64,000 bases of DNA from Lachnospiraceae bacterium (lineage in GTDB: Bacteria > Bacillota > Clostridia > Lachnospirales > Lachnospiraceae): assembly GCA_022769005.1 (NCBI GenBank), contig JALEKK010000017.1, forward strand, positions 1 through 64,000, in the 5' to 3' direction. The notes beneath the pieces are model-generated. The model was not told where the DNA came from. It did not search any database and saw only the letters and a program-made list of their open reading frames with translations. Positions within the stretch are counted from its first letter, which is position 1. Each line of letters starts with the position of its first letter. Made by a program: the position numbers and the translations under genes. Shown piece after piece: positions 26,049 to 46,000 of the stretch.

Positions 26049-26100
26049 AATAACCTCAATACAACATTATTCCCATATTCAACCGCATAATAAACGACAT

Positions 26101-26301: not shown

Positions 26302-26315
26302 CTTTATTTAAATAA

Positions 26316-26912: not shown

Positions 26913-27096
26913 AATAAGCCTCCTCATTGACAGAGTGAATATAGTTAAAAACAGGCACATTATTTGTCCGGTTCTTTCTTCTTCCGATATGAATATATGC
27001 TATGACCAATATATCACAATAAACCGTTTTAGTCCCTAATTTGTTGAATAAATATCTGCTTTGTCTGATTCTCAACATATTAAGTCGTTTCGTTAC

Positions 27097-28290
27097 TCAA
27101 TCTTTCAATATCTTAACGGCTCTTTCCAGTATACCGTTCATGTAACTGATTGCCGTTCCGTAATTGGTTACTTTTACTCCGCTGTTATGTATGTGCTTCA
27201 TGCGGCTCAAAATCTGTTTTTCGCTTAACATACATCCGCCGCAGTGAATAACCAGGTCAAAACCCGCAAGATCTTCCGGAAAATATGTACCGTTCGACAG
27301 CTCGATGGAGAGCTCTTTTTCTGTATATTTTTTTAATAATTTCGGTATTTTAACGGATCCTATGTCTTCACACTGTCTGTGATGAGAACACCCCTCCGAA
27401 ATCAATACTCTGTCTCCGTCCTTTAAGTTATCGATGTGATAAACTCCCTCCAATGCCATTTCCAGAAATCCTTTATATCTGGCCATAAGAATGGAAAATG
27501 AAGTAAGAGGAATGTCTTTCGGAACAATTTTATCCACAAATCCGAATACCTGGCTGTCGGTAATGACCAAATCCGAATATCTGCCGATTCCGTTTTTCAT
27601 AAATTCTTCCAGTTCGGTATCCTTTACACAGACGGCCTGTGAATCGGCAGCCAGTATATCTCTTATAACCTGTTGCTGAGGAAGTATTAATCTCCCCTTC
27701 GGAGCAGATTCATCAATTGGAATGACAAGGGTTACCAATGAATTTTTTTTGAGCCTGTCCGAAATAATAAATCTCTCTTCTTTTCTCTCGTTAAACAGAA
27801 TTATTTTTTCTTCCAAAAGCAATTTTAGCTCTTCAATACGTATGTTCTCAGCGGCGGAAACCGATATATCGGCACGTATGTCAGTTGTCTCAATCTTTGC
27901 TTCATCAATCTTATTACACACGGTAATGTATGGAATATTCCTCTCATTGCACAGTTTTAACAGCGGCTCAATGTTACTCTCCGTTTCATGAGGCGTTGTG
28001 ACTATTACCGCTATATTTACGGTATCGAGGGCTTTTCGTGCAGCCTTCATTCTGAGAGAACCAATTTCTCCGTCATCCGAAAAGCCGGGAGTGTCAATTA
28101 AAACCACCGGCCCCGCCTTGTGTAATTCCATGGTTTTTTTTACCGTATCGGTTGTTGTACCCTTAAATTCCGATACCACTGAAATATCCTGTCCCGTTAC
28201 GGCATTAATGAGTGAAGATTTACCTGCATTTACATTTCCGAGAAACCCTATTTGAACACGTTCGGAAACCGGTGTGTCATTTAAACTCAT
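27097..28290 (-). CDS. hydF: [FeFe]-hydrogenase maturation GTPase HydF
   Basis: HydF (397 aa) is the scaffold that carries the 2Fe subcluster and delivers it to HydA. The N-terminal Era/TrmE-like GTPase has P-loop GNVNAGKSS (residues 18-26), the DTPG motif and NKID. The C-terminal cluster-binding part has CSHHRQC and HCGGC, the HydF pattern. Length and order of domains are normal. Confidence 0.93.
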   Translation of the reverse strand: MSLNDTPVSERVQIGFLGNVNAGKSSLINAVTGQDISVVSEFKGTTTDTVKKTMELHKAGPVVLIDTPGFSDDGEIGSLRMKAARKALDTVNIAVIVTTPHETESNIEPLLKLCNERNIPYITVCNKIDEAKIETTDIRADISVSAAENIRIEELKLLLEEKIILFNERKEERFIISDRLKKNSLVTLVIPIDESAPKGRLILPQQQVIRDILAADSQAVCVKDTELEEFMKNGIGRYSDLVITDSQVFGFVDKIVPKDIPLTSFSILMARYKGFLEMALEGVYHIDNLKDGDRVLISEGCSHHRQCEDIGSVKIPKLLKKYTEKELSIELSNGTYFPEDLAGFDLVIHCGGCMLSEKQILSRMKHIHNSGVKVTNYGTAISYMNGILERAVKILKD

Positions 28291-28508
28291 AATTATTTAC
28301 CTGTGTATATATCCCGGATATATACATCCTCTCCTGAATATTAGTCAGATTATAAAATACCTGCGCAAGTTTCCATACCGCATACATTTAATACTAAATC
28401 ACATATCTGTTTAATTAATACTATAAATATTCCCTTTTATCAACTTATCAATCAGTAATTAATGGTAAAGGAAATACACTTATGTTCTCATATACATTTC
28501 TAACAAAA

Positions 28509-28544
28509 AAGCGGATGTCACTGTTATACAGCAAACATCCGCTT
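28509..28544 (-). terminator. Terminator of the Mrp operon
   Basis: A perfect 10-bp stem, AAGCGGATGT (28509-28518) with ACATCCGCTT (28535-28544). On the minus-strand transcript it is followed by TTTTTTGTTA. The stretch 28291-28508 upstream of hydF contains nothing else I recognise. Confidence 0.88.
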
Positions 28545-28589
28545 AATTATCCGAAAGCATAAGCACTGTCGTGCAAATACATTAAATTA

Positions 28590-30581
28590 TTAATTGAAAG
28601 CTACAAGGATTATGAAATATAATACCGCAACCATACCTATTACAAACAATAACAAACTGTATGAAATTCCTCTCGGAACTTTTTCCGCTTTTTGAGGCTT
28701 TTCATATAGCGCAAATTCATCTTCTTCCTTAGGATTAAATCTCTCCGGTCTGTTAATAAAGAACAGAGACTTATAAAGCCACGCTATGCCGTCTCCGACT
28801 ATGAACACAAGTCTTGCGGCAAACGCACCGATAAACGGTAAAACCGTGAGAAGAGCAGGGCGATAAAAATATTTTTCCATATCCAATCCATAGTTCCAGG
28901 CATCGATATATTCCTTTTTACCGTCTGCATTCTTTTTCATCAGACAAGGTCTTACTATGAGGAAGTAGAACAATGCTCCGATAGCAAGAGAAGCAAGAGC
29001 TCCGCTGATGTTAGTCCATGAAAAATATGCAACTTCCTTTTCCAAACCGTGACCGTTTAAGAAATGCTGTGACATTTCCCCGATAACATCCTGTGTGAAG
29101 TGCGGTAATATTCCGATTACAGGGAATAATACTCCGAGTATCACAAGCAGAATCTTTACGGGAACACTCGTATACTTTGATTTCCCGTCATATTCGGCCT
29201 GAAGTTCAGGGTCGTTATTCTTCTCAATAAATACTGCCGTAAATATTTTAAGCATGTAACAGAATGTCAGTCCGCCTGTAAATATAAACAACGCCTCTAT
29301 TATTTTAAATATTACCGCCATACCGGTGGTTTCCGGAAACATTGCAATATATTCAACAAGACTCTCGTGTATAAGAGTTTTACTGATATAGCCGTTAAAA
29401 AACGGTACACCTGCTACGCCCAGAATTGCCGATCCGCTCACTAACTTAATAAGCCACTTATTTCTGCCCCATCCGCGTATCTTATTAAGGTCGAAATCCT
29501 TAAGATTCATAAATATCACTCCTGCGACCATAAACAGCGCAAGCTTAATAAACGAATGGTTAACAAGATGTAATACAGAGCCCTGTACCGCTATGGCATT
29601 ATGTTCTCCCAATATTGCCTGCATTCCTGTTCCCACAAGAATGAAACCTATCTGGGACATAGAAGAACATGCAATCGTCCTTTTAAAGTTAACGGAGAAT
29701 ACCGCAAGCATTGCTCCCGTGAGCATGGTAAGGGTTCCCGCTATAAGAATAACCAATCCCCATGTATAGTCATGGAGAAGCACCTGACCGGTTACCACGA
29801 ATATACCGAATATACCGGCTTTACTAAGCACTGCGGAAAGCAATGCCGTGGCAGGCTCCGGAGCCGCCACATAGGCCTTTGGAAGCCATGTATGAAGGGG
29901 ATACATTCCCGCTTTGACTCCGAATCCGACTAATATAAGTAAACCCGAAGCAAGTATAATTCCGTAATTTGCTCCCGACATTTTTATTGCATCCAGAATT
30001 TGATCCATTTCTAAAGTGCCGATATTTGCTTTAAGCATAAACAGTCCCATAAGTGTTACAAGACCGCCGAACACACCGAATCCCAAATAGCTCTTTGACG
30101 CATCTATCGCTTTTTCGGATTCTCCGTGAATAACAAGAACATATGATGTAAATGTCATAACCTCGAAGAATATAAATGTTGTATATAAATCAGCCGAAAG
30201 GAATATTCCCATCGTCGCTCCGAGAGTCCAGAGCATAAACATATAGTATCTGTTTCTGTTTCGGCTGCTTAATCTGTTAAAGTATTCAATGCTTTGAACC
30301 GTGGTAAAGAACCATGCTATACCGGCTATCATAATCATTACCAGTCTGAACCCGTCCGCTCTGAAGTGCAATCCGAATCCCGCAAATCCTTCCCAATATA
30401 AATCAGTAGGGGTTTCAAACGACATAGCCACGAGGACTATGGCCGCAGCAAGCTCAATCGCGGTAATTAATACGGCCACTCTGTCTCTGCCGGCCTTGCT
30501 GTGTCTTCCGAGTATATAATTAACAAGTCCCGCCGCAAACGGAAAGAATACCAAAAACAATATAAGTAAATTACCTGACAA
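28590..30581 (-). CDS. NuoL/MrpA-like proton-conducting membrane subunit
   Basis: A 663-residue polytopic protein of the proton-conducting transporter family (PF00361), the largest of four paralogs in this operon. Conserved channel residues are visible: the helix-5 glutamate in FIFFEVMTFTS, and the helix-7/8 lysines in GFGVKAGMYPLHTWLPKAY and LLSAVLSKAGIFGIF. About 180 residues after the core form extra helices, as in NuoL. Translation starts at TTG (30579-30581), well supported by AAGGAGGTGA seven bases upstream. Last gene of the operon. Role: ion translocation in an Mrp- or complex-I-like assembly. Confidence 0.85.
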   Translation of the reverse strand: MSGNLLILFLVFFPFAAGLVNYILGRHSKAGRDRVAVLITAIELAAAIVLVAMSFETPTDLYWEGFAGFGLHFRADGFRLVMIMIAGIAWFFTTVQSIEYFNRLSSRNRNRYYMFMLWTLGATMGIFLSADLYTTFIFFEVMTFTSYVLVIHGESEKAIDASKSYLGFGVFGGLVTLMGLFMLKANIGTLEMDQILDAIKMSGANYGIILASGLLILVGFGVKAGMYPLHTWLPKAYVAAPEPATALLSAVLSKAGIFGIFVVTGQVLLHDYTWGLVILIAGTLTMLTGAMLAVFSVNFKRTIACSSMSQIGFILVGTGMQAILGEHNAIAVQGSVLHLVNHSFIKLALFMVAGVIFMNLKDFDLNKIRGWGRNKWLIKLVSGSAILGVAGVPFFNGYISKTLIHESLVEYIAMFPETTGMAVIFKIIEALFIFTGGLTFCYMLKIFTAVFIEKNNDPELQAEYDGKSKYTSVPVKILLVILGVLFPVIGILPHFTQDVIGEMSQHFLNGHGLEKEVAYFSWTNISGALASLAIGALFYFLIVRPCLMKKNADGKKEYIDAWNYGLDMEKYFYRPALLTVLPFIGAFAARLVFIVGDGIAWLYKSLFFINRPERFNPKEEDEFALYEKPQKAEKVPRGISYSLLLFVIGMVAVLYFIILVAFN

Positions 30582-30610
30582 GCTTATCTCACCTCCTTAT
30601 GTGTATTTGT

Positions 30611-32086
30611 TTATAAAATACCTGCTATATGCTGAAACATATTTATAAACGGCGTCGGATATACTCCGATTACGATTGATGCGACACTGAGTCCCATCAT
30701 AGGAATTGTCATACATTTTCCCGGATCCTTAACTCCCCTGTTCATTCTCTCAAGGTTTAATCCCTTATCAGGGAAATATGCCTTGATAATAATTTGGAAC
30801 AGGTATAAAGATGTAAGTACGGCTGAAATTATAAGTGCGCCGATACCGACATAAGAAAGAACCAAATCCGTGTTCGCAGCTGCCGTTCCGATCATCCATT
30901 TACTTGTTATAGCCATAAGGGGAGGTACGCCGATAAGCCCGAGAGAACATATTGTAAATGCAGCCATTGTTACAGGCATTGTTTTTCCGAAGCCCGCTAG
31001 CTGATCTACATATTCTCTTCCCGTTGTTACAATAATTGCACCCGCAACAAAGAACAATGTAATCTTAAGTACCGAATGGAACATCATGTGAGTCAGACCG
31101 CCTACCAGTCCCTCAGGAGTCATAATCATAAGAGAAAACAACATATATGAAAGATTACTTACCGTTGAATAGGCAAGTCGCCTCTTAATATGATTTTCCC
31201 TTAGAGCCATGGAGGAACCGAATATTATTGTTATTATGGCTGCAAGCATGCAGACAAACTGAGCCCATGTTCCGTATAACAACTCCGTGCCGAAGCTGTA
31301 ATATGTAACTCTCATAATCGCAAATACACCGGCATTAACAACCGCTACGGCATGAAGAAGTGCCGTAACCGGTGTCGGAGCAACGCCGGCGCTCGGCAAC
31401 CAGTTGAAAAACGGAAAAATTGCCGCTTTTACGCCAAAGCCGAAAAATGCACATATAAATCCGACAAGCAATAACTGTTCATGACCTGCAATCTTAGCAA
31501 TATCCGTTAAAATTCCGCCATACACAAAATCAAGCGAAACTCCGAAGTTCATCAGAAGCATAATTGCGATAAAACCGAAACTCGCTCCCGTTATCGAATA
31601 AATAACGTATTTTTTGCCGGCAGACGCCGCCTTTTTGTCCATCTCATGCATAACAAGAGGCAACGTTGCGGCCGTGAGCAATTCGTAAAACAGATACATT
31701 GTGATTAAGTTGGCTGAGAATACAATTCCCATAATCACACCGAATGAAATAATGAAAAATGAAAAGAATTTATTTTCATTATGTTCATGTGACATATATT
31801 CAAATGCATAAAACGCCGTTACCACCCAAAGTGTGGAAACGATCATTCCGAATACTGTAGATAAACCATCCACTCTAAAGGTTATACTAACGATTTCCGA
31901 AAAACGTATCACCGTAAAGGATTGTTCAGGTACAGTAAACATAAATACGATTGCAAGAATCATATTAGCAATGCAAACCATTGCTACATATATATGTCTT
32001 TTTCGATTATCTTTTATCCCGTTGCACATGAGTATAAATCCCATAACAATAGGAAAAATAATCGGTATTAAAAGCAATGCCGCCAT
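30611..32086 (-). CDS. MrpD/NuoM-like antiporter subunit (paralog 3)
   Basis: A 491-residue polytopic membrane protein of the same family. The helix-5 Glu is in YLFYELLTAATLPLVMHE and the helix-7 Lys in GFGVKAAIFPFFNWLPSAG. In the helix-8 segment LLHAVAVVNAGVFAIMR, an asparagine stands where most family members, including its three neighbours, have lysine. This may alter ion conduction. GAAGGGAG precedes the ATG. It lies 29 bases from its downstream paralog and 32 from its upstream one. Confidence 0.83.
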   Translation of the reverse strand: MAALLLIPIIFPIVMGFILMCNGIKDNRKRHIYVAMVCIANMILAIVFMFTVPEQSFTVIRFSEIVSITFRVDGLSTVFGMIVSTLWVVTAFYAFEYMSHEHNENKFFSFFIISFGVIMGIVFSANLITMYLFYELLTAATLPLVMHEMDKKAASAGKKYVIYSITGASFGFIAIMLLMNFGVSLDFVYGGILTDIAKIAGHEQLLLVGFICAFFGFGVKAAIFPFFNWLPSAGVAPTPVTALLHAVAVVNAGVFAIMRVTYYSFGTELLYGTWAQFVCMLAAIITIIFGSSMALRENHIKRRLAYSTVSNLSYMLFSLMIMTPEGLVGGLTHMMFHSVLKITLFFVAGAIIVTTGREYVDQLAGFGKTMPVTMAAFTICSLGLIGVPPLMAITSKWMIGTAAANTDLVLSYVGIGALIISAVLTSLYLFQIIIKAYFPDKGLNLERMNRGVKDPGKCMTIPMMGLSVASIVIGVYPTPFINMFQHIAGIL

Positions 32087-32118
32087 ATTTACTCCCTTCT
32101 AAATATTAATCATTACGG

Positions 32119-33594
32119 TTAAACCGGTAATATAACTGAAATAATTCCACTTATTGCATCAGTCAGTCCCACAGGCATAACTCCGAGACCCAGCGCAAGT
32201 ACCGATAATATTATAAGAGGTACCGTCATATAAGCGTTTGGTTCCGTCTTAACGAGTCCTTCATAATTATAGTCTTTGCCCGGGAAGAATGCCGTCTGAA
32301 CAATAGGGAACAGATATCCTGCTGTAAGCAGAGCCGAAAGCAATAATACTGCGGCGCCCACTATTCCCAAAGCTCCGAACTCCGGAGCAAGAGACGCCGT
32401 TGCCAGATACCATTTGCTGAAGAATCCCGCAAACGGAGGTATACCGACAAGCGAAAGCGATGCGATCGTAAAACACCACATTACAATCGGCATTTGTTTG
32501 CCTATACCCCGCAGCTCATATACATATGTCTTATGTGTTTTATAGATAATTGCTCCGGCACATAAGAATAATATATTCTTGGCAATCGCATGGAATACCA
32601 CCTGAAGAAGCGCTCCTTCCACCGATGCGGGTGTAAGCAGAAATAATCCGAACAATACATATGAAACCTGACTGACCGAAGAATACGCAAGTCTCTTTTT
32701 AAGAAGTTTCTCCTTAAATGCCAGCATAGAGCCCACAAATACCGTTGTCAAAGCAAGAATTATGAGCATATACTGCACCCAGGTTCCCCGAAGCATTTCG
32801 GGGCCGACCTGATAAAATAAAACTCTTATAATCGCCAGTACTCCCGCCTTTGTAATGATACCCGAAAGCACTGCCGAAGCCGGTGCAGGTGCTACCGGAT
32901 GGGCGGTCGGAAGCCATGCCTGAAGCGGTATCATACCCGCCTTTGCACCGAATCCGATAACCATTATTAATGTAACAACAAGCACTAACGTCTCATGTCC
33001 TTCCACCAATGAAGGATCGAGGACACCTCCCGGACGGAATATGAGATTTCCTCCGGCAAATCTGTTAATAAAGAAAAGTCCGAATAAACCGAAGCCCGCT
33101 CCGAAAATGGAATATCCAAGATATTTCATTCCGGCAGCAATAGCTTCTTTTGTCCTGGAATGAATTACAAGCGGAACAGTCATTATAGACATAATCTCAA
33201 AGAACATGTAGAGAGTAATCAGATTACCCGAATAGCACAGTCCTACGAGAATGCCGCCGGTCATTGTGTAAAAGCCTAAAAATCTTGATTCATCACCTTC
33301 GTGCTGAATATATTCATAGGCAAAAAATGCTACTAACATCCATATTATTGCCATTATACAAGCAAAGAATTTAGATACCGAATCAAGTTGAAATCCGACT
33401 ACCATATTATCCGCAATGGTCCACAGATTGAGTCTCAATCCGTCCGTAAAGGCCATTCCGCATACTATGGCCGCATTTAACACAAGAATAACGGAAATTA
33501 AAATTTTTCTTGCTTTAGCGTCCTTCATGGGAAAGACAAATAACCCGGCAATAACAGGCAGTAGTATGGGTATTAGCAATGTTACTCCTGCCAT
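32119..33594 (-). CDS. MrpD-like antiporter subunit (paralog 2)
   Basis: A 491-residue membrane subunit, the one of the four most like Mrp/MnhD. Helix-5 Glu in YMFFEIMSIMTVPLVIHS, helix-7 Lys in GFGAKAGMIPLQAWLPTAHP, helix-8 Lys in VLSGIITKAGVLAIIRV. Same strand and short spacing within the operon. Mrp-D-type subunits conduct Na+/H+ in exchange complexes and need the small subunits encoded upstream. Confidence 0.87.
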   Translation of the reverse strand: MAGVTLLIPILLPVIAGLFVFPMKDAKARKILISVILVLNAAIVCGMAFTDGLRLNLWTIADNMVVGFQLDSVSKFFACIMAIIWMLVAFFAYEYIQHEGDESRFLGFYTMTGGILVGLCYSGNLITLYMFFEIMSIMTVPLVIHSRTKEAIAAGMKYLGYSIFGAGFGLFGLFFINRFAGGNLIFRPGGVLDPSLVEGHETLVLVVTLIMVIGFGAKAGMIPLQAWLPTAHPVAPAPASAVLSGIITKAGVLAIIRVLFYQVGPEMLRGTWVQYMLIILALTTVFVGSMLAFKEKLLKKRLAYSSVSQVSYVLFGLFLLTPASVEGALLQVVFHAIAKNILFLCAGAIIYKTHKTYVYELRGIGKQMPIVMWCFTIASLSLVGIPPFAGFFSKWYLATASLAPEFGALGIVGAAVLLLSALLTAGYLFPIVQTAFFPGKDYNYEGLVKTEPNAYMTVPLIILSVLALGLGVMPVGLTDAISGIISVILPV

Positions 33595-33612
33595 ATAAAT
33601 ATCCTTTCATTA

Positions 33613-35268
33613 TCATAAGAGCTTTATGCCCATCTGAATTATTCTGACTATCGGTTCATAGAATATTCCAAATCCGAAATTGCTCGCAATAAATAATACC
33701 ATTGCAATTACGAAACCTGCAGAGTTCCTATGTTTCTCATCATGATGCGCATGCTCTTCCGCAAGCGCCTGTTCTGCCTCATCACGCACTTTCTCAACGT
33801 CTTTGTGATCATATGTTGCATTGAGCTTATAACCTGTTAAGTCAACATGTTTTACAGGGGTACTGATGACAGGTACTTCTTCTGAATATGCATGATGTCC
33901 CTCATGATGTTCTTCAGGCAATCTCCAGATATTAATAATTGCCCCGAGATAATATACTGCGTTAAGAGCTGTGGATACAGCAAGCGCAACCAATACTATC
34001 GGCAATCTGAACCAATCCGATTCTATGGCTCCCACCGAGAAGAACAACTTAGAAACAAAACCTGCAAATAACGGAATACCGATCATGGACATACCTCCGA
34101 TTGTAAACGCAATACCCGCAAGTTTATTTTTATGAGCCGCTCCCCTCAATTTCTTAAAGTCATATGAATGCCCCGATACATTTGCAAGACCTGTTGCCGA
34201 AAGGAACAACATAGGTTTTGTTATGGCGTGAGATATGATATGCAAAGTTGCCGCTATAATTCCGATTTCGGAATTTATTCCGATACCCATGAAGATATAT
34301 CCGATTTGAGCAACAGAAGAGTATGCGGCCATCCTCTTTAAATGTCTCTCTCTCAAGGCGTTTACGGATCCCATCATCATACCGAGTACGCCGAGAACCA
34401 GAAGAACATCCGCTATATGTGATTCCTGCATAATCTCGGGAGTGAACACTCTGTATACGGATTTAATTAAAAGTACTATGTAGCCTTTAAGTACAAGTCC
34501 GGAAAGTATGGAGCTTGATGTAGACGTTGCCGATGCGTGTGCGCTCGGAAGCCATGAATGAAATGGGTACAGCGCCGATTTGATTGCTATTGCAACGCTT
34601 ACTATTCCGATAACTGTTACAAGCGGAATTGTATATTGTCCGCTTGCCCACAACATTCTTACGGATTCTCCCAAAGGTTCCATAAGAAGGTGACCGGTAA
34701 TTCCGTAAAGCATTGAGATGCCCAGAAGGAATAATCCCGATCCTATGGCACTCATTATCATGTAACGTGTTGTTGCCACAATGGTCTTTCCCGAATCCTT
34801 TGCCATAACAATCGCACATGAAGCAATTGTATTTATCTCTATAAATACGTATCCGGTAAACATATCATTTGTATACGTAAGGGCAAGCAATGAACAAAGA
34901 AGAAGGTCAAGCATTATAAAATACAAATACTGTTTTTTTGATTTGACGTCTTCAAATACATTTCTTAATCCGCCGATGATTGATAACGCCATTACAAAAC
35001 AAAATACAGTCGCGATAAGGGCTTCATACGGACCTGCCTTCAGTTCGTTTCCGAAAGGCGCAGGGAAATGTCCCATCATGTATGTGAAACTTGCATCATT
35101 TTGAACAAGATTAACAAGCAATGCTGCGTTCAAAGCTCCCGTAAATATTACCGAAGCCAAATTGACCGTGCATGCCGCTTTGCCCCATTTTCTGATAAAC
35201 GGCGTCATCATTGCAACAATCAGCATCAACAGGATACTTATGAAGGGAACATTATATATAAACGGCAT
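33613..35268 (-). CDS. MrpD/MbhH-like antiporter subunit with His-rich loop (paralog 1)
   Basis: A 551-residue membrane subunit. Helix-5 Glu is in YVFIEINTIASCAIVMAK, helix-7 Lys in AIKSALYPFHSWLPSAHASA, helix-8 Lys in LSGLVLKGYIVLLIKS. Unlike its paralogs it has an added hydrophilic region of about 75 residues near the C-terminus, rich in His and Glu (EEHHEGHHAYSEE, EEHAHHDEKHRN), before the final helix. Its ATG overlaps the MrpC stop by one base and has GGAGGGTGA upstream. Confidence 0.85.
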   Translation of the reverse strand: MPFIYNVPFISILLMLIVAMMTPFIRKWGKAACTVNLASVIFTGALNAALLVNLVQNDASFTYMMGHFPAPFGNELKAGPYEALIATVFCFVMALSIIGGLRNVFEDVKSKKQYLYFIMLDLLLCSLLALTYTNDMFTGYVFIEINTIASCAIVMAKDSGKTIVATTRYMIMSAIGSGLFLLGISMLYGITGHLLMEPLGESVRMLWASGQYTIPLVTVIGIVSVAIAIKSALYPFHSWLPSAHASATSTSSSILSGLVLKGYIVLLIKSVYRVFTPEIMQESHIADVLLVLGVLGMMMGSVNALRERHLKRMAAYSSVAQIGYIFMGIGINSEIGIIAATLHIISHAITKPMLFLSATGLANVSGHSYDFKKLRGAAHKNKLAGIAFTIGGMSMIGIPLFAGFVSKLFFSVGAIESDWFRLPIVLVALAVSTALNAVYYLGAIINIWRLPEEHHEGHHAYSEEVPVISTPVKHVDLTGYKLNATYDHKDVEKVRDEAEQALAEEHAHHDEKHRNSAGFVIAMVLFIASNFGFGIFYEPIVRIIQMGIKLL

Positions 35269-35648
35269 TATTCACCCTCCTTTTCCTGTTTACTCTTAAT
35301 CATGATTTCATCAAGATTAAGAGTGTGATATTTCTTATACAGTCTCTGTATCAGAGCAAGAAAGAATGCTGTTGTACTGACAGAAACTACGATTCCGGTA
35401 AGTACAAGACCCGCCGGTATAGGGTTGATATACTGTGCTGCATCCGGTGAGAGATTGTCCCCGAGAATCGGAGCCACTCTCCCAAACACAAAACCTCTCG
35501 AAGCAAGATAGAGATATACAGCCGTATCCATTATATTCAGTCCTATTGCTTTTTTAACAAGGTTGTTGTGAAGCAACAGTCCCATTAAGCCTATACCGAA
35601 CAGAATCATTGAAGCAATTTCATAATAATGATTCAAGATATAATCCAT
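35268..35648 (-). CDS. mrpC: MrpC/NuoK-like antiporter subunit
   Basis: From the Met at 35648 (after GAAAGGAGAG) the product is 126 residues with three membrane helices, matching MrpC/MnhC and NuoK. The family segment is LMGLLLHNNLVKKAIGLNIM, with TGIVVSVSTTAFFLALIQRL in helix 3. A longer frame of 19 extra residues runs back into the MrpB fusion gene and is not used. A charged tail (KSKQEKEGE) ends it. Confidence 0.87.
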   Translation of the reverse strand: MDYILNHYYEIASMILFGIGLMGLLLHNNLVKKAIGLNIMDTAVYLYLASRGFVFGRVAPILGDNLSPDAAQYINPIPAGLVLTGIVVSVSTTAFFLALIQRLYKKYHTLNLDEIMIKSKQEKEGE

Positions 35649-35652
35649 AAGC

Positions 35653-36600
35653 TTAAATCTCTCCTTTCGAGAATAATTTGTAGAAGCCGAACATTGTACA
35701 TGCAACTATAAATCCTACACATATGTTAAGCGGTAATATAAGTCCGCCGCTCAGTATCGCACCCGGTGTTCCGGTAGAAATAATTGAATGTAAATGATTG
35801 GCACCCGTATAGAATGAATAACATTTAAGTCCCGCATATGTTAACAACGCACCGCTTGTTATGGCAGTAAATATTTTAAAGTTAAAAAATTTCTTTGCTT
35901 TTCTGTCTCCGAATGATACCGCATACAGTATCAGACCGGCACCTATTATTGCGCCTCCGGAGAATCCTCCTCCCGGAGAGAGATGTCCGTTAAGAACAAC
36001 ATATATTCCGAATATAAATATTATCGGAATGACAAATTTGGAAATAACCTGAAGAATTATGTTAGGATATTTTTCTTCGGTAAGAGTTTCCTCTTTTATA
36101 ACGGCAGTTTCTTTGTCAAATTCCGCCTGCTCTTTGGCGTTTCTTTTTTCTTCATCCCTTCTCAGAAGAATTATTACTGCGGCCACGGCAGAGAAAAGAA
36201 CCGTTGACTCGCCCAGCGTATCAAATGCTCTATAGTCAAGAATCATACTGGCAATAACATTGGTAGCACCTGTATCTGCCAATCCGTCTTCTATATATTT
36301 TGCTGAAACCTCGTTATTGGTAGGCGCATCAATAATTCCGAAGGATGGGTCAAAATTGACAACAACTAAAAGAAGAACTATAAACGCGCAGCACATGGCA
36401 ATTGCAAGTCCGATATAGACTTTTTTAAATTTCCTGTAATTTTTTATCTCGTCTTCTTTTTTTTCTTTTTTCGGTCTTCTGATATTTTCTCTGATAACCT
36501 TTTTTTCTGTTTTCGGACGCTCTTCACCGTTTACCCAATCAACAAATGCATTATGTTTCTCAGGTACGGAGGAGAGCTGTTTTTTTTCTTTTTCTTCCAT
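35653..36600 (-). CDS. MbhE-MrpB fusion subunit with charged N-terminus
   Basis: 315 residues that join two usually separate parts. After a charged, non-membrane N-terminal stretch of about 60 residues (lysine/glutamate-rich), one helix leads to the MbhE/MrpA-C-terminal-like segment ASMILDYRAFDTLGESTVLF. A second charged linker leads to a MrpB/MnhB domain with NGHLSPGGGFSGGAIIGAGL. AAGGAGGAGAACG precedes the ATG. In Mrp and Mbh complexes this region connects the small subunits to the antiporter core. Confidence 0.85.
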   Translation of the reverse strand: MEEKEKKQLSSVPEKHNAFVDWVNGEERPKTEKKVIRENIRRPKKEKKEDEIKNYRKFKKVYIGLAIAMCCAFIVLLLVVVNFDPSFGIIDAPTNNEVSAKYIEDGLADTGATNVIASMILDYRAFDTLGESTVLFSAVAAVIILLRRDEEKRNAKEQAEFDKETAVIKEETLTEEKYPNIILQVISKFVIPIIFIFGIYVVLNGHLSPGGGFSGGAIIGAGLILYAVSFGDRKAKKFFNFKIFTAITSGALLTYAGLKCYSFYTGANHLHSIISTGTPGAILSGGLILPLNICVGFIVACTMFGFYKLFSKGEI

Positions 36601-36611
36601 CGTTCTCCTCC

Positions 36612-36923
36612 TTAAGTGTTATCATCTTCATTTTTATCCGCCTCGGATTCTTTGTCGGCTTCTTCCTTTTTCTTCTTATCCAAAGCCTTAATCTTATTAT
36701 ATGTAACAAAGAACAGTATGGTCGTTACTCCCGCACCAACCGCCGCCTCGGTTCCGGCAAGATCGGGGGATTCCAAAAATAACCATATAATGGACATAAC
36801 AAGGCTGTACGACATAAATATCAAAGTAGTAGTCAAAAGACTCTTAACCACGGTTGATGCCACGGCGCACAGAATAAGAAAACCTAACAGGGTCCATACA
36901 AGTAATGTGGTTGCATCAAACAT
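36612..36923 (-). CDS. MbhD-like (DUF4040) subunit
   Basis: 103 residues, three helices, with the DUF4040 signature ESPDLAGTEAAVGAGVTTIL, equivalent to MbhD or to part of MrpA's C-terminal region. The last 25 residues are a charged tail (KKKKEEADKESEADKNEDDN). It overlaps mrpG by 8 bases. The set MbhD + MbhE-MrpB + MrpC follows the Mbh gene order. Confidence 0.85.
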   Translation of the reverse strand: MFDATTLLVWTLLGFLILCAVASTVVKSLLTTTLIFMSYSLVMSIIWLFLESPDLAGTEAAVGAGVTTILFFVTYNKIKALDKKKKEEADKESEADKNEDDNT

Positions 36924-37257
36924 CCTTATCTACCCCCTCATCAAATCTCTTCTTAAATTCCTCAGAGTCTTCTGCGGTTATTGTAGCTATCTCCATCTTT
37001 GCAATCATGTGAGATGAAACAGGAGCAGTCAGCCAAAAGAATACTAAAATAATTACAAGTTTCAGCGTTGAATAAGTAAGTCCTGTCATAACGCCCACGC
37101 CCGCAAGCACTGAAAATAATGCCAGTGAATCTCCTATTGCGGCGGCATGCATTCTGTTAAGCACATATTTAAACTTGAATACTCCGAATGTGGACATTGC
37201 AAACAGGAAGACTCCGAACCCCACAAGACAGGCTGCTATAATAAATCTTATCAGCAT
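36916..37257 (-). CDS. mrpG: MrpG-like antiporter subunit
   Basis: 113 residues with three helices and the MnhG/PhaG signature FKFKYVLNRMHAAAIGDSLA followed by GVMTGLTYSTLKLVIILVFF. Its start overlaps the mrpF stop (ATGA). Required small subunit of Mrp complexes; no catalytic residues of its own. Confidence 0.9.
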   Translation of the reverse strand: MLIRFIIAACLVGFGVFLFAMSTFGVFKFKYVLNRMHAAAIGDSLALFSVLAGVGVMTGLTYSTLKLVIILVFFWLTAPVSSHMIAKMEIATITAEDSEEFKKRFDEGVDKDV

Positions 37258-37604
37258 CAGTCATCGTCCTCCTCTCTGTTAACATTTACTACCCTTGATT
37301 TTTCATCACCGCGCAGCCTATGCTTTTTTTCTTTCGCAACTATGATCTTTGAAAGAACAACAACGGCAATAAATCCGAGAACCGCATATATTACGGCAAC
37401 ATCAAATATAAAATCTTCATGTAAAAATATGGCAAGAAGGCATATAAATGCCATCGTATTGGTGCTTATCATATTGCCTGCCAAAATACGATCCGTGTAT
37501 CTGGGTCCTCTTATCGCCCGTATTAACAGCATCAGCAGCATCGCCGCCATCGCAAACATACAAATAAGCAGGAAAATGTCTGAATATAACGTTTTTTCAA
37601 TCAT
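37257..37604 (-). CDS. mrpF: MrpF-like antiporter subunit
   Basis: 115 residues, three helices, with the MnhF signature IRGPRYTDRILAGNMISTNT. In structural work on Mrp this subunit packs beside MrpG. A hydrophilic tail follows. Its ATG overlaps the mrpE stop. Confidence 0.9.
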   Translation of the reverse strand: MIEKTLYSDIFLLICMFAMAAMLLMLLIRAIRGPRYTDRILAGNMISTNTMAFICLLAIFLHEDFIFDVAVIYAVLGFIAVVVLSKIIVAKEKKHRLRGDEKSRVVNVNREEDDD

Positions 37605-38074
37605 TATAATTTCTCCTCCATTTTCTTTATCTGCTCTACAAATACCGACTCATCCATTCCCTCCGACATACTTACGTCAAGAGCATGCACTATAAATACA
37701 TCATCGTCTATATCACATGTAATCGTACCGGGAGTCATGGTTATTGAGTTGGCAAGAGTCGCTTTTCCGACATCGGATTTGATATCAGGATTTTTAAAAT
37801 ATACAAGACGCGGTTCAATGGTATCTCCCGGAGTCATTATAAATTTTAATGTTCCGAATGTGGCTTTAACGATTTCCCACCATAGAACAAATGCATATTT
37901 AAAAAGTCGTCCGATATTTTTAAATATAAACGCTTCCTGCTTAGGACCGTATCCGAGTGCTTTCCAGGCAAAAATGTAAACTGCGGCCGCTATTCCGAAT
38001 CCGAACAGCATAACTTCCAATGTCCATCTTCCGTTAAATACGATCCAAGCAAAGAAGAAAATTGCATAAAACAT
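37604..38074 (-). CDS. mrpE: MrpE-like antiporter subunit
   Basis: 156 residues with two or three N-terminal helices and the cytoplasmic MnhE domain. Signatures are FILMW-like KFIMTPGDTIEPRLVYFK and ANSITMTPGTITCDIDDDVF. The ATG follows GAAAGGAGATAAAT. First Mrp structural gene, preceded by the small-peptide gene and its terminator-like hairpin. Confidence 0.9.
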   Translation of the reverse strand: MFYAIFFFAWIVFNGRWTLEVMLFGFGIAAAVYIFAWKALGYGPKQEAFIFKNIGRLFKYAFVLWWEIVKATFGTLKFIMTPGDTIEPRLVYFKNPDIKSDVGKATLANSITMTPGTITCDIDDDVFIVHALDVSMSEGMDESVFVEQIKKMEEKL

Positions 38075-38101
38075 ATTTATCTCCTTTCAATAATAATAAA
38101 A

Positions 38102-38168
38102 GAGCCTGTACAGTTTATTAAGATTAATTTATTTCATCATATAATCATTAGTATCTGTAATCAGGCTC
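38102..38168 (-). terminator. Terminator-like hairpin overlapping the leader-peptide stop
   Basis: On the minus-strand transcript GAGCCTG-AT-TACAG (38168-38155) pairs with CTGTA-CAGGCTC (38113-38102), 12 bp with a 2-base bulge and a loop of about 40 bases, followed by TTTTATTATTATT. The 5' arm is the last coding stretch of the 65-residue peptide (residues EPDYR). A ribosome finishing the peptide would cover that arm. It therefore looks like a translation-responsive attenuator in front of mrpE, though this is inference. Confidence 0.65.
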
Positions 38169-38345
38169 AAATACATTAACAATATAGCCGTTATCACCGG
38201 AATGGTGTCCCTCTGTCGTATCTTCAACATGTTCCGTTTGCTCGTCTTGATGTTCATTTTGATGTTCTACCCCTGTCGGGGCGGATACGAGAAACAGTAT
38301 TCCGACAGTTGCCGCAAGTGCGGCCAAAACCGATAGTACTTTCAT
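38148..38345 (-). CDS. Small membrane protein with His/Glu-rich tail, Mrp operon leader
   Basis: 65 residues from the Met at 38345, which has an excellent GGAGGTCATT site. One membrane helix (VLSVLAALAATVGILFLV) is followed by a hydrophilic part rich in His, Glu and Gln (EHQNEHQDEQTEHVEDTTEG, then HHSGDNG) and an aromatic/acidic end (VNVFEPDYRY). It is the first gene after the Mrp promoter. No family recognised. It may bind metal ions through the histidines, or serve as an Mrp accessory subunit, or act mainly as a leader peptide. Confidence 0.72.
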   Translation of the reverse strand: MKVLSVLAALAATVGILFLVSAPTGVEHQNEHQDEQTEHVEDTTEGHHSGDNGYIVNVFEPDYRY

Positions 38346-38496
38346 AATGACCTCCGTTAAATCAATCCGTTTCAAAACACCGGTATTATGTTTATGATGC
38401 GGCAAAATATGTAGATCCGACAAATGACAGCGACTGTTTATGCCGGCTGCAATTTAATATAATTTTATACAAATTATATTAAATTATAATGTTTTA

Positions 38497-38525
38497 ATAA
38501 TAATTCATAGCAACATTAAAGTCAA
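38497..38525 (-). promoter_or_regulatory. Promoter of the Mrp operon
   Basis: On the minus strand -35 TTGACT (38520-38525), 17-base spacer, -10 TATTAT (38497-38502). The start would be near 38490, giving a leader of about 145 bases before the small peptide. The rest of 38346-38630 is AT-rich without other features. Confidence 0.7.
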
Positions 38526-38630
38526 ATCGATTGTACACATTTTAATACAATATGACGGTTTTATATCTAATTCATTAATTGCTTTTCGGTAAGTTGTTAT
38601 ATAAGGAATATTTAAGTATCAGAAATCAAA

Positions 38631-38672
38631 AAGACCATGGCATCACATCTCAAATGCATATGCCATGGTCTT
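38631..38672 (-). terminator. Terminator of the hydrogenase operon
   Basis: A perfect 13-bp stem AAGACCATGGCAT/ATGCCATGGTCTT (38631-38643 with 38660-38672). On the minus strand the stem ends in TCTT and runs into TTTGATTT. It separates the hydrogenase genes from the Mrp operon. Confidence 0.88.
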
Positions 38673-38720
38673 TTAAAATTTCAAAATATTCCGTTAAATA
38701 ATTATATATCTTATACCGTA

Positions 38721-40457
38721 TTACTTTTCATTATACATTTTCCATGCATGATGATCGGTATGAAGAAGCTTTTCGGCAAGCTCTGAAAGAGGTTCTCCCA
38801 AAAAGTCTCTGTATACGGCTATAATTGAAGGATTTTCATGTGAAAATCTCAATTTATCATTTCTGTCAATCTTATATAAGATATCGGCTCTTTCCTTTTG
38901 TTTGCTGTATCCGTTAACTATAGGCTGACCGCCGCCGTTAACACATCCGCCCGGACATGCCATGACCTCTACAAAATGATAATCAGCCTCACCCTTTCTC
39001 AATGCATCGAGAAGTCTGTCTGCGGCACCGAGAGTGTGTGCAACGGCAATCTTTAATGTGGTTCCGTTAATATCAAGAGAAAGTTCTCTCCACTCTTCCT
39101 GTCCTCTTACTTCCTTAAACGCATCGGGATCCGCATTCTCGCCTGTCACAACATTGTATGCGGTTCTGAGAGCCGCTTCCATAACTCCTCCGGTTGCTCC
39201 GAATATGTGACCGGCTCCCGTCGCAATGCCGAGAGGCATGTCAAGTTCTATCTCTTCAAGACCCGCAGGGTTGATATTGGCAGCCTTAATCATACGTGAG
39301 ACCTCTCTCGTTGTGATTGAAAAATCAACATCAGGCTCTCCGCATGCGTCATTAAGAACAGGAATCTCCGCCTCTTTCTTCTTGGCGATGCAAGGCATTA
39401 CCGAAACGCATACTATATTCTTAGGATCAACTCCGAGAATGTTTGCATAATATGTCTTTGCAATAGGTCCAAACATCTGCTGCGGTGATTTTGATGTGGA
39501 CAGCTGATCCACAAAATCAGGATGAAATGCCTTGCAGTGGCGGATCCATGCCGGACAACATGATGTAAACATAGGAAATTTAGCAGCTTCTTCAGGATGT
39601 GTAAGCTTATGAACGAATTCATTTGCTTCCTCCATAATAGTAAGATCGGCGGCGAAGTCCGTATCAAATACATAATCCACGCCCATCTCTTTAAATGCCG
39701 CACAAAGTCTCTTCATTGACGCCGTCTCGTCATCTAATCCGAAAGGCTCACCCCATGCCGTTCTTATTGAAGGAGCAATCTGCATTACAACAATCTTCTC
39801 AGGGTCCTCGATACATTCGAATAATCTGTCCGTATCATCTCTTTCTCTGAGGGCTCCCACAGGACAATGCTTAACACACTGACCGCAGATTGCGCAATCC
39901 GTATGGTCTAAGCAGTCGCCTGAAGAAAATCCAACCGTTGTTCTCGATCCCGTGTTAATAACGTCCCAAACATGAGTATTCTGCATATTGTCACATACCT
40001 GTACACAACGCATGCATTTGATACATTTTGAATCATCTCTTGTAAACGGAAATGTCTTATCGAGTTTTGCAATAGGAACATCTTTTTCAAAACTGATTTC
40101 TCTTATGTTAAGTTCATTTGATACCTTCTGTAATGAACAGTTTCCGCTTCTTACGCATGTAGGGCAATCCGTATTATGCTGTGAAAGAATAAGTTCCACA
40201 TTGTTTCTTCTGGCAATTCTTGCCTTTTTGCTGTTGGTATATATGACCATTCCTTCGTCTACCGTATTGTTGCAGGCGGTAAACAATTTATCGTAACCCT
40301 CAACTTCAACAACACATACACGACATGCACCTATTTCATTGATGCCTTCCCAATGGCAAAGTGTAGGAAGGTTTATTCCCGCAGACTGCGCCGCTTTAAG
40401 GATAGTTGTTTTCTCCGGTACCTGAACAGCTTTACCGTTAATTGTAATATTTACCAT
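38721..40457 (-). CDS. hydA: [FeFe] hydrogenase catalytic subunit
   Basis: 578 residues, cytoplasmic, interconverting H2 and 2H+ + 2e-. In order: an N-terminal 2Fe-2S domain (Cys34, 45, 48, 62); a His-ligated 4Fe-4S cluster (His94, Cys98, 101, 107); two 4Fe-4S clusters (CIKCMRCVQVC at 145-155; CAICGQCVKHC at 188-198); and the H-cluster domain with L1 TSCCPAW (298-304), L2 MPCIAKKKE (354-362) and L3 ACPGGCVNGGGQP (about 500-512). All ligands are present. It overlaps the upstream flavoprotein gene by 7 bases. The pairing with a GltD-like protein fits the HydDB group A2 description. Direction and partner are inference. Confidence 0.95.
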   Translation of the reverse strand: MVNITINGKAVQVPEKTTILKAAQSAGINLPTLCHWEGINEIGACRVCVVEVEGYDKLFTACNNTVDEGMVIYTNSKKARIARRNNVELILSQHNTDCPTCVRSGNCSLQKVSNELNIREISFEKDVPIAKLDKTFPFTRDDSKCIKCMRCVQVCDNMQNTHVWDVINTGSRTTVGFSSGDCLDHTDCAICGQCVKHCPVGALRERDDTDRLFECIEDPEKIVVMQIAPSIRTAWGEPFGLDDETASMKRLCAAFKEMGVDYVFDTDFAADLTIMEEANEFVHKLTHPEEAAKFPMFTSCCPAWIRHCKAFHPDFVDQLSTSKSPQQMFGPIAKTYYANILGVDPKNIVCVSVMPCIAKKKEAEIPVLNDACGEPDVDFSITTREVSRMIKAANINPAGLEEIELDMPLGIATGAGHIFGATGGVMEAALRTAYNVVTGENADPDAFKEVRGQEEWRELSLDINGTTLKIAVAHTLGAADRLLDALRKGEADYHFVEVMACPGGCVNGGGQPIVNGYSKQKERADILYKIDRNDKLRFSHENPSIIAVYRDFLGEPLSELAEKLLHTDHHAWKMYNEK

Positions 40458-42283
40458 TTTTCTCTTCTACCTCCCCTAAAGCTTCCGTAACCGAAATGGT
40501 CACAATGCAGGCATCTTGCGGATTCCTGACAAGCCTCTTCGTCAGTCATGCCGATTTCCATAAGTTCGAATGATTTTACTCTTTCAGACGGAGAAATCTC
40601 TCTCATGTTAACTCTTGCGCAAGGCTCATGATCGCTGAATCTTATTCTAGGTAATTCGATTCCCGCATCAATAATATGATTATATCCGAGATATTCATCA
40701 ATATTTGCTGCGGCAACCTTTCCTGCGGCAATGGCTTTAATAACCGTGGCAGGACCGGTAACACAATCTCCTCCGGCAAATAATCCGTCAACGCCTTCAA
40801 CTCCGGACGTATCAAGTGCATCGATATGACCTCTTGTAATATGTACGCCCGACTCTTCAAGTTTGGATGAATCGATTCCCTGACCGATTGCAACGATTAC
40901 CTTATCACACTTAATCTCAACTTCAGGAGTGTCAGCAGCCTTAACGCTTGCTCTTCCGTTCTTTATGGCACCTATAATCTGAGGCTGTACAACCAATGAA
41001 CTCACCTTGCCGTCAGCGTCCTTTTCTATTCTTACAGGAGCGTTAAGTTCTATAATCTCACAACCGTCCGCTATTGCACCGTATATTTCCTCTTCGAGAG
41101 CAGTCATATCGCTTATTCTTCTTCTGTATACAACCTTTACGCTCTTTGCTCCGAGTCTTACGGCAGAACGGGCAACGTCCATGGAAACATTTCCGCCTCC
41201 GACAACTACAACATCCTGTCCCGTATAATCAACCTTCTCTTTATCGCCTATGGCTCTGAGCATCTCAACCGCACTTGTTACACCATCGGCATCTTCGCCG
41301 TCAATTCCTATTTTTTTATCGGTATGCGCACCGATGGAAACAAATACGGCGTCATTTTCGGAAAGCAGATCGGCAAGAGAAATATCATTACCGATACTTA
41401 CATTCATCTTAGTCTTTATACCTGTTGACAGTATGCCGTTTATCTCCTTATCGAGAACTTCCGACGGAAGTCTGTATGTAGGAATTCCGTAACGAAGCAT
41501 TCCGCCGAGCTGTTTTCTCTGCTCATAAACTGTTACGTCATGTCCCATGATGGCAAGATAATATGCCGCAGAAAGTCCTCCCGGACCGCCTCCAACTATG
41601 GCCACTTTTTTTCCTGTGCTGTCCATGATGGCAGGAGTCTTTATGTCTCCTTCATGTTCAACGGCATATCTCTTAAGACCTCTGATATTAATCGGATCGT
41701 CTACCATTGTACGACGGCAGTCCGACTCACAAGGATGTTCGCATATAAGACCGCAAGCCGCCGGAAACGGATTGTCTTTTCTTATAAGATTTACCGCATC
41801 CTCATATCTTCCCTCATGGATAAGAGAAATATATCCCGGAACATCAACATGTGCCGGACACATTGATATGCAAGGTATGGCTCTGTGATGAGAACCGCCG
41901 CATCTGCCCTCATTAACATGTGATTCATACTCATCTCTGAATCCTTTTATGCCTTTAAGAACCATTCTTGCAGCTTCTGAACCTATGGCGCAGTCTGCCG
42001 TATAAAAAATAGATTCCGCGGTATGCTCTATTGTGTCTAATGTATTCATGGAAGCCTTACCGTCAAGAACATCGTTGATTAATGATTCAAGCTGTCCGAG
42101 TCCGACTCTGCATGGTGTACATTTTCCGCATGACTGTGAATGACACATATGAACAAATGCTTCTGCCAAATCAACAGGGCACAATCCCGGCTGACTTGCT
42201 TCAATTCTTCTCTCAAGATCTTTATAGAGAACCTCTATCGTTTCCTGAGCCTGATCTTTCGTGGTTAAAGTTAGTCTACTCAT
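40451..42283 (-). CDS. NuoF-cluster/GltD-like NAD(P) flavoprotein, hydrogenase partner
   Basis: 610 residues with an unusual composition. Residues about 1-125 are the 4Fe-4S tail domain of NuoF (CGKCTPCRVG, Cys52/55/58, with Cys98 as fourth), but without NuoF's FMN/NADH domain. Then comes a GltD-type FAD/NAD(P) oxidoreductase: cysteine region CISMCPAHVDVPGYI and CGLICEHPCESDC, FAD motif GGGPGG (231-236), NAD(P) motif GGGNVSMD (362-369), and GGDCVTGPATVIKAIAAGK. A CLHC motif ends it. It resembles subunits of Nfn- and glutamate-synthase-type complexes. It probably passes electrons between hydrogenase and NAD(P)H, possibly with bifurcation. Confidence 0.85.
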   Translation of the reverse strand: MSRLTLTTKDQAQETIEVLYKDLERRIEASQPGLCPVDLAEAFVHMCHSQSCGKCTPCRVGLGQLESLINDVLDGKASMNTLDTIEHTAESIFYTADCAIGSEAARMVLKGIKGFRDEYESHVNEGRCGGSHHRAIPCISMCPAHVDVPGYISLIHEGRYEDAVNLIRKDNPFPAACGLICEHPCESDCRRTMVDDPINIRGLKRYAVEHEGDIKTPAIMDSTGKKVAIVGGGPGGLSAAYYLAIMGHDVTVYEQRKQLGGMLRYGIPTYRLPSEVLDKEINGILSTGIKTKMNVSIGNDISLADLLSENDAVFVSIGAHTDKKIGIDGEDADGVTSAVEMLRAIGDKEKVDYTGQDVVVVGGGNVSMDVARSAVRLGAKSVKVVYRRRISDMTALEEEIYGAIADGCEIIELNAPVRIEKDADGKVSSLVVQPQIIGAIKNGRASVKAADTPEVEIKCDKVIVAIGQGIDSSKLEESGVHITRGHIDALDTSGVEGVDGLFAGGDCVTGPATVIKAIAAGKVAAANIDEYLGYNHIIDAGIELPRIRFSDHEPCARVNMREISPSERVKSFELMEIGMTDEEACQESARCLHCDHFGYGSFRGGRREKW

Positions 42284-43086: not shown

Positions 43087-46000
43087 ATGAGTTACAATAT
43101 TAAAAAGCATATTCCGAAGATTCTGGTCGCCGTAATATGTATTGCGATATTATGTGTGACCGTTATTTCATTTCGCTTCACAAATGTTAAAGGCGAAAAC
43201 ACATCATCAGGAGATAATTACGACTTAAAAGAGAATGTAAACACTTCCGCCGATGATGAATTTACGGGCGGAAAAGAATACAAATATTCCGATGAAGACT
43301 TAAATGTTACGGTAACTCTTCCGAAAGAAACAGCCGTGCCTTCCGATGCGGTTCTCAGTGTTAAAAGAATTACAAATGACAACAACGGCGAACAGTACTC
43401 AGAGCTTGAAAAAAGCGCAAAGGAAGCCGTATCCGGAACATTGGAAAGCGCCGCTTATTATGATATAAGTTTCTATACTTCGGACGGAAGTTACATTGAT
43501 GTATCCGACAAGGCCAAGGTTTCCTTCGATTACAATGATAAAGTTCCGATCAACGTAACCCCCGACAACACATCAAGCAGAGTCGGAGTGCTGCATTTCA
43601 CCAACGGAACTTCCGATGCCGTTGATGTGAAAAATCTTGTAACGGATAATGACAAAGTAAACAATAATAACAATAATGTTATATCCAAAACCGATGACAA
43701 AGGCGATAAAGTTACTTCTCTTGATTTCAATACCGAAGGATTTTCAATATATGCCGTTGTTAACGTCACGGACTATAACTCCATTGAAAGCGGTCCGTAT
43801 GTCATCGTCAATACGAACCGACAGGGAAATAACGGTACGCTCTATGCTCTTACATCAAGCAAAAGCGGAAGCAACAGACTTTATTATTCCACCAATCTGT
43901 CCATGAGTAACGGAATTGTCAATACCACTTCAAGTATTACACTATGGTATTTTTCAAAAGTAGACGGAGTAACAAACGGATACAATATTAAGGCCATTGA
44001 TTCCGGCGAATATATGAGTCTGTCATCCCGAGCACTTACAACATCGTCGTCCCTTAACAATTCAACAACCATATATGTAAGAAATAACAACACCGGAACA
44101 TACCCGGGACAGGTGATGCTGTCAACCTCTTCCAACAACAACAGGCAGACTTATAATATTAACTTATACGGAGGAGGCGATCAAGGCATATTCGGTTCGT
44201 ACAATGACAACACCGGCGCCAATGAATACCTTACTCTTGCAAAATATGCGGACGCTAATTTTATTACATATGATTTCGGTCTTTCAGCTTTCAGAACCCA
44301 ATATCACTTTCCTACCGGCGGTTCATGGTACAGAAAAAACGGTAATACATATATTCAGGATTCATCATCCGAACCGACGCTGAGCTCATCCATAACTTCA
44401 ATTGCCGACGGAGAGACTCTTTCTTCCGTAAACGGAACAAAAAGCGACAACGGATATTATACATGGGTAAGAAGATCCGGAGATGCTCAAACCGCAACTT
44501 TGGCTTCTGCAGGCAAGTCCCCGGGAAAAGACATTCGCTTTGACGGCTGGGAAGCCACAATCAACGGAAAAAAATATGTATTCCCTGAGGGAGCGGCAAT
44601 AACAAAAAGCGGCACTAATGCCGTTATAACAGATGTAAACGGCAATCGTGTCACTGTTCCCACAGGTACTACCTTAAAAGGAAAGTGGACTCAGATTTCC
44701 GACGTTGTCAGGTTCTTCATCGGACGTAACGCAACCATACTCGATACGGTGGGCGATACTCAAAAAAGAGCAAATCCATTGTGGACCGGTCAGATTGCAG
44801 TAGGTCATATTTATTATGCCCAAAGCGATTATATAGGCAGCGATACCATAATGTATTCATGGGCAAATGAGGCCATAAGGAGTTCTTTTGCACATTCATT
44901 TGACCCAAACAATTTGAGTACGCAAATCGTTATTGATTATGTCACCTCCCAAGCTTCCAAAACCGCTCAGGAAAACCGATACACCCCTGCAGACGGAATC
45001 AACGCCACAGAGCTTGATACTTCTTTACTTACATATCTTTACAACCGTGAAGAAAGTATAAATATGGCTCCGGGTTCCACCTCCAACAGACCTCCGGTCA
45101 GCAGTCCGAAAACATCCGACAACTTTTCAATAAGATGGTACATCGTAAAGGACGAAGGTGATGATTACCACATTGACGGCGTACTCGTAGCCAAGACAAA
45201 GGAATTATCCCTCAGTGAAAACTTCTTCGGAATAGACGAGTCGCAGGTAAATAATATAATGACGCGGGGTACGAATCCTCTCACTACGGATGTTAAAATC
45301 AACAGCAATCTTTCTGATTATCTGTCAATCAAAAATTCATCCACCGAGGATTATGACTATCTCGGAAAAACAGACGGTTCGTTGAGTTACAGATGGGTTA
45401 TTCCCGTAATCAACAATGAGCAATACACATTCATAGAGAAAGAATCCGGAACGGCTCTTTCCGGATATGATGTTACAACCCTTATAACTCATTATTATAC
45501 GGATGACACCGGCAACAATTTATCGGAGTCAAAGTTCGGACATGAAACCACAAGTGTCGACTCCACGGTTAACTCTACCAACAACCTGAGACAGCACCTG
45601 TTAGGCGGTAAATCCTACAGCCTGGTTTATGACAACTTTTACACTCCGGTTAACACAGGTTCGCTTCTGATAAAGAAATATGAATCTGACAGCGATAATA
45701 ATCCTGTTTCCTCACTTTCAGGTGCCGAGTTTAAACTCTACGGTGATAATTTACCGTCGGCAGGCGGTACTCTTGTATCAACGGTTTCATCCGACAATAA
45801 CGGATTTGTATTTTTTAATAATCTGCAAAAAAGCAAAGACTATTATCTTGTTGAGAGTACCGTTCCCAACGGTTTTGAAAATAACAGTTCGTATTGGAAA
45901 GTTACCGTCGATTCAAATGCCAATGTCTCAATTCAGCAATATGACGAATACGGCAATACGGTGGGAGATTCTAAAATTGTATATGAAGATACAACAGTCA

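Follow-up and report, generated by a model that had tools for sequence, protein, structure and literature searches.

Short ORFs that precede a premature-termination signal and then the structural genes are familiar from the ribosome-mediated attenuators of trp and pyrBI and from mgtL and corL, the leader ORFs of ion transporters; some attenuators (pyrBI, ampC) have no competing antiterminator. In MifM-yidC2 and SecM-secA, the upstream peptide is inserted in the membrane or exported, carries a conserved C-terminal arrest sequence and acts on a hidden ribosome site. We analyzed a 64,000-nucleotide stretch of DNA of a gut bacterium of the Lachnospiraceae (hereafter, the window) in which a small ORF lies ahead of a Mrp sodium/proton antiporter operon. 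The order of elements is the same as in trp, pyrBI, mgtL and corL, the termination signal being here a predicted one, but we found neither an antiterminator nor a regulatory codon run, and the ORF encodes a conserved protein that is also found in hairpin-free loci. As in MifM and SecM, the upstream peptide presents a membrane segment, but the conserved C-terminal arrest sequence and the hidden ribosome site are both missing.

Two further systems are close in design. In Rhodobacter capsulatus, the gene of CutF, a small protein that is exported and may bind metal through one of its parts, immediately precedes cutO, and a hairpin separates the two genes (PMC9973294). It acts on translation: the stem-loop hides the cutO ribosome site and CutF has a proline-rich stalling end (PMC9973294). 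The window resembles this arrangement by its predicted small exported protein, by the position of its gene directly upstream of the gene that would be controlled and by the intervening hairpin. However, the hairpin is here terminator-like, the ribosome site of mrpE lies outside of it and there is no proline-rich stalling end; we claim no homology. MdtU, encoded by a small translated ORF ahead of the membrane transporter operon mdtJI of E. coli, is associated with premature transcription termination that is Rho-dependent and spermidine-responsive, and its conservation is strongest at the C-terminus (PMC7815308). In our locus, a small ORF likewise precedes an operon for a membrane transporter, with translation and termination predicted, whereas the small protein of the window is conserved most in its N-terminal membrane span. 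In the literature searched, we found no Mrp system with leader peptides or with a small partner rich in histidine. The explanation that we favor, and to which we would give an even chance, is that a small Mrp-associated membrane protein is encoded by the first cistron and that a lineage-specific, internal partial terminator would set its ratio to the antiporter.

The small gene, its operon and its hairpin

The small ORF comprises 65 codons on the minus strand, from an ATG at 38345 to a TAA at 38150-38148, and is preceded by AACGGAGGTCATTATG, with a good ribosome site, GGAGG (Table 1). Its translation (MKVLSVLAALAATVGILFLVSAPTGVEHQNEHQDEQTEHVEDTTEGHHSGDNGYIVNVFEPDYRY) presents a single N-terminal membrane span (Kyte-Doolittle mean of 2.6 over 17 residues starting at residue 3) followed by a His/Glu/Asp-rich tail that is probably extracytoplasmic. 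An earlier note on this DNA had described a His/Glu-rich single-span membrane peptide encoded ahead of mrpE, and indeed the ORF and its ribosome site can be read directly. Searches of the small peptides against Pfam and NCBIfam returned sub-threshold matches only.

Table 1. Features of the small gene, the hairpin and the Mrp operon in the window.
Feature	Position	Strand	Basis
Candidate operon promoter TTGACT-17-TATTAT	38497..38525	-	Consensus scan, 10/12 match
Small gene, 65 aa, first cistron of the Mrp operon	38148..38345	-	ORF and ribosome site, homologues in nine other genomes
Hairpin 5' arm GAGCCTG-(AT)-TACAG, encoding E60-R64 of the small protein	38155..38168	-	Direct reading, fold
Hairpin 3' arm CTGTACAGGCTC	38102..38113	-	Direct reading, fold
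U-rich run UUUUAUUAUUAUU after the hairpin	38089..38101	-	Direct reading
mrpE, second cistron	37604..38074	-	MNHE, Pfam E 4e-27
Rest of the Mrp operon: mrpF, mrpG, mbhD-like, mbhE/mrpB fusion, mrpC-like, four proton-antiporter (Proton_antipo_M-type) subunits	28590..37604	-	ORFs and Pfam

The mrpE gene has its own ribosome site, AAAGGAG (~38087-38081), outside the hairpin, and starts with the ATG at 38074. Pfam supports the downstream assignments of F, G, MbhD, MbhE/MnhB, a C-like protein and two large subunits; the two antiporter subunits of 491 aa were assigned by eye. We infer that the operon promoter is the TTGACT-17-TATTAT element, although ~5.5 matches per region are expected by chance in this consensus scan; the leader between this element and the small ORF would be ~145 nt long. 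Comparable elements, TTGAC(A/T)TTTT...CATAAT, were observed upstream of the small gene in two other genomes that carry it (L253 and L255) and immediately upstream of mrpE in three genus-mates of the window (L003-L005). A promoter between the hairpin and mrpE (38121-38093) was rejected: its score is at chance level and it would leave almost no leader. Shortly downstream of the candidate promoter lies a perfect 15-bp inverted repeat, AATTTAATATAATTT-5-AAATTATATTAAATT (38451-38485), that could be an operator or merely AT-rich sequence.

The Mrp operon is flanked by hydrogenase genes (24975-42283, minus strand). Upstream are a HydA-like gene (38721-40457) and a fusion of NuoF and a pyridine-nucleotide oxidoreductase (40451-42283); downstream, ORFs resembling by eye the maturases HydF (27097-28290) and HydE (24975-26048). 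The presence of hydrogenase genes on both sides suggests that hydrogenase and Mrp are functionally linked at this locus. At ~38631-38676, hydA is followed by a long hairpin (AAAAGACCATGGCAT...ATGCCATGGTCTTTT) that has U-runs on both strands; it is likely the hydA terminator, separating this gene from the Mrp operon. Elsewhere in the window, we noted two ordinary features: an S10-Clostridia ribosomal protein leader (Rfam RF03136, 55 bits; 13327-13420, minus strand) and a large surface protein of pilin or adhesin type, with a SpaA domain and an LPFTG-like end (43087-47544).

The end of the small gene overlaps a hairpin spanning 38168-38102. Its 12 bp are divided into 7 + 5 bp by a 2-nt bulge and close a loop of 41 nt (38154-38114), in which a weak AU helix is the sole pairing. 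Codons GAG CCT GAT TAC AG make up the 5' arm, the stop codon lies in the loop, starting 5 nt beyond this arm, and the hairpin ends 28 nt ahead of mrpE. The 91-nt fold has a free energy of −18.6 kcal/mol (shuffle mean −9.7; z = −3.7), which was equalled in none of 200 dinucleotide shuffles, and the value for the hairpin with its U-run (−17.4 kcal/mol) was equalled in none of 100 shuffles. A simple terminator scan overlooked this structure because its loop exceeds the limit of 8 nt. When the whole leader was folded, the terminator hairpin was kept in both the MFE and the centroid structures and no antiterminator was predicted. At the small ORF and the hairpin, Rfam gave nothing at the gathering threshold and, with a looser cut-off, a single miRNA match attributable to chance (E 3.4). 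Judged by sequence alone, a predicted intrinsic terminator with an atypically long loop is present between the small ORF and mrpE. The earlier description of the 3' end of the small gene as one arm of a 12-bp terminator hairpin holds for the overlap and the U-run, but the helix is bulged, the loop long and the terminator atypical.

We compared this hairpin to others in 378 kb of the same genome in one scan, which identified terminator-like hairpins at 68 gene junctions, using crude gene calls (greedy longest ORFs, an antisense ORF displacing mrpE itself). The hairpin of the window is long and poorly paired relative to the 68 junction hairpins (span of 67 nt against a median of 37 nt; 51% against 80% paired), and it is therefore an atypical terminator, weak by loop and pairing. 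Since 5 of the 21 co-directional gaps of 60-120 nt contain a terminator-like hairpin, internal terminators are not exceptional in this genome. The 5' arm starts inside the upstream gene in three of the 68 cases, including the window's own, and in none of the 63 well-paired hairpins whose 3' arm lies past the stop; this rarity hints that the overlap may matter.

Distribution of the small gene and of the hairpin in relatives

Our survey covered ~200 distinct loci with mrpE, almost exclusively clostridial and mostly from draft metagenome assemblies; at each, we inspected the DNA upstream of mrpE. A homologous small ORF was found immediately upstream of mrpE in nine genomes in addition to the window: a group of small-genome Clostridia (L050, L051 and L253-L256), the sister species L016 and L018, which belong to one genus within the window's order, and Clostridia UC5.1-1D2 (L106). 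All these small proteins begin with a short basic segment, followed by a membrane span and a tail that is often rich in His, Glu, Asp and Gly; the tail of L253 contains one His. The alignment of the carriers places the conservation in the membrane span, where the motif AAxxGILFLVSA is conserved between the window and its nearest carriers, and the C-terminus is variable. Codon comparisons indicate that the small gene is under purifying selection at the protein level (L253/L254: dN = 0.15, dS = 1.07, dN/dS ~0.14; L051/L256: dN = 0.16 with saturated synonymous sites). The small protein of the window has a pairwise identity of only 15-17% with those of L016, L018 and L106, whose proposed homology draws on gene position, overall design and a common profile; the E-values of this ten-member profile refer to the sequences from which it was built. 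In L106, the MrpB/MbhE-like ORF located +1335 from the mrpE start contains, in its N-terminal part, a long His/Glu/Gly repeat that recalls the tail of the small protein.

A His residue immediately precedes the stop in all seven proteins of L050, L051, L253-L256 and L106, with differing stop codons, which may reflect a functional C-terminus. This residue is absent in the window, L016 and L018, the three carriers with an overlapping hairpin.

The five genus-mates of the window possess mrpE without the small ORF or the hairpin, most of them with a promoter-like element directly upstream, and no small gene was detected when their genomes were searched with a profile. A quick MrpE tree nests the window and its five genus-mates within the carrier clade (SH-aLRT of 99 and 95), and the small gene was therefore probably older than the window's hairpin and lost in the genus-mates. 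Searching 98 relatives with the single peptide yielded chance matches only. Among 391 Clostridia, a six-peptide profile had weak matches in eleven further genomes; these were rejected as family members, as no mrpE was present at any locus fetched and the best match (L211) resembles a secreted protein. With the ten-peptide profile, only the window, L016, L018 and two matches within a 604-aa frame were retrieved from 392 genomes of the window's order.

One uniform scan was applied to the interval between the small gene and mrpE in all ten carriers, and no terminator-like hairpin was detected in six of them (L050, L051, L253, L255, L256 and L106). In L254, a hairpin of −19.6 kcal/mol follows the stop of the small gene and was equalled in 21 of 100 shuffles. 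In L016 and L018 (−28.5 kcal/mol in the latter), a terminator-like hairpin overlaps the end of the small ORF, as in the window. Its outer arms (GCAGCGATAGC / AGCTGC) and its run (TTTTGTTAT) are conserved between these two sequences. The ORF, however, reads into the hairpin in different frames with different stop positions in the two species, indicating that the precise stop-to-hairpin geometry is not kept. The hairpins of the window, of L016/L018 and of L254 are mutually unrelated in sequence. Because the nearest carriers present no counterpart, the analysis of these sequences indicates that the window's hairpin is lineage-specific.

Explanations for the overlap

Starting from what is directly established (the conservation of the ORF and the selection on it, the hairpin, its U-run, their overlap, and the lack of hairpin conservation in most carriers), we infer the following. 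The first gene of the Mrp operon would yield the small membrane protein, most likely an accessory of the Mrp complex. The hairpin and U-run would act in vivo as an internal intrinsic terminator with partial read-through, some transcripts ending after the small gene and others running on into mrpE, which would set how much small protein is made relative to antiporter. Because translation extends through the 5' arm, the hairpin should unfold briefly each time the small ORF is completed, and read-through may rise with translation; we would see this as a passive consequence rather than as a dedicated sensor. The recurrence of unrelated hairpins in the window, L016/L018 and L254 would be consistent with repeated acquisition of partial termination, but with six of the ten carriers lacking a hairpin, setting this ratio would not be a general need. 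A likely small accessory gene and an internal terminator are each ordinary in kind.

The earlier note had instead proposed a translation-coupled attenuator, in which the terminating ribosome masks the 5' arm, good translation leads into mrpE, poor translation leads to termination, and serving as a regulatory leader is the main role of the peptide or one of its roles. The geometry agrees with the claim that a ribosome which has reached the stop would sit over the 5' arm, and the rarity of such overlaps in the window's genome also speaks for this proposal. The second lineage with an ORF ending inside a terminator-like hairpin (L016/L018), with its conserved outer arms and U-run, points the same way. 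This parallel was downgraded as strong independent support, however, because overlapping hairpins are common in the L016 and L018 genomes (18 of 50 in the same scan), and the frame and stop inside the hairpin differ between the two species. The fold offers no antiterminator, and the peptide is conserved in its membrane span rather than at its end. Moreover, the note had named the loss of paired arms alongside a conserved peptide as a refutation, and the hairpin is indeed not conserved with the ORF in most carriers, which weakens the switch model. A dedicated leader-peptide switch is therefore possible but, in our estimation, rather unlikely. The dN/dS of the ORF and its hairpin-free homologues run counter to a leader peptide as its main role, and the evidence does not establish a novel form of antiporter regulation. 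It is also conceivable, although we regard it as unlikely, that the overlap arose by drift: an ancestral gene ending in His-stop before an intergenic hairpin (which may serve in termination, 3'-end stabilisation or processing) would have been extended into it by stop loss or frameshift. Such an extension into a pre-existing hairpin would explain why His-stop is found in 7/7 carriers without overlap and in 0/3 with it. The residues DEAH that immediately precede the hairpin-encoded tail of L016 and the L254 hairpin that still follows the stop fit the same history. Drift, however, leaves unexplained why a terminator-like hairpin occurs at the same place in three lineages, and the tail of the window has no clear ancestral end.

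Finally, the exported His-rich tail might bind metal or sense the membrane and thereby slow the ribosome near the stop and open the hairpin, as a nascent-chain sensor of the CutF or MifM type. The membrane span, the His/Glu-rich tail, the site just upstream of a cation-transport operon and the intergenic hairpin are all in keeping with this idea, and CutF demonstrates that designs of this type exist (PMC9973294). Nevertheless, no arrest motif or regulatory codon run is visible in the small ORF, the window's hairpin leaves the mrpE ribosome site uncovered, most carriers are hairpin-free and the L253 tail has its single His; we consider this sensor very unlikely. Sensing of pH, metal or insertion by the peptide, as suggested earlier, found no support in our analysis and has precedent in kind only (CutF, MdtU). 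We view as very unlikely that the small protein would be both a Mrp accessory and a cis-acting sensor, its insertion or cation binding slowing its own ribosome at the end of the ORF, opening the terminator and turning on the operon. If true, this would represent control by the nascent chain of an exported peptide over transcription termination rather than over translation.

Returning to the accessory protein and partial terminator that we favor, because the end of the ORF overlaps the predicted terminator, any dependence of read-through on translation should be easy to probe with a reporter. The small protein falls outside all Pfam and NCBIfam models and was previously unnamed. Mrp complexes are large energy-coupling machines, and an extra small subunit or regulator in them would be of interest.
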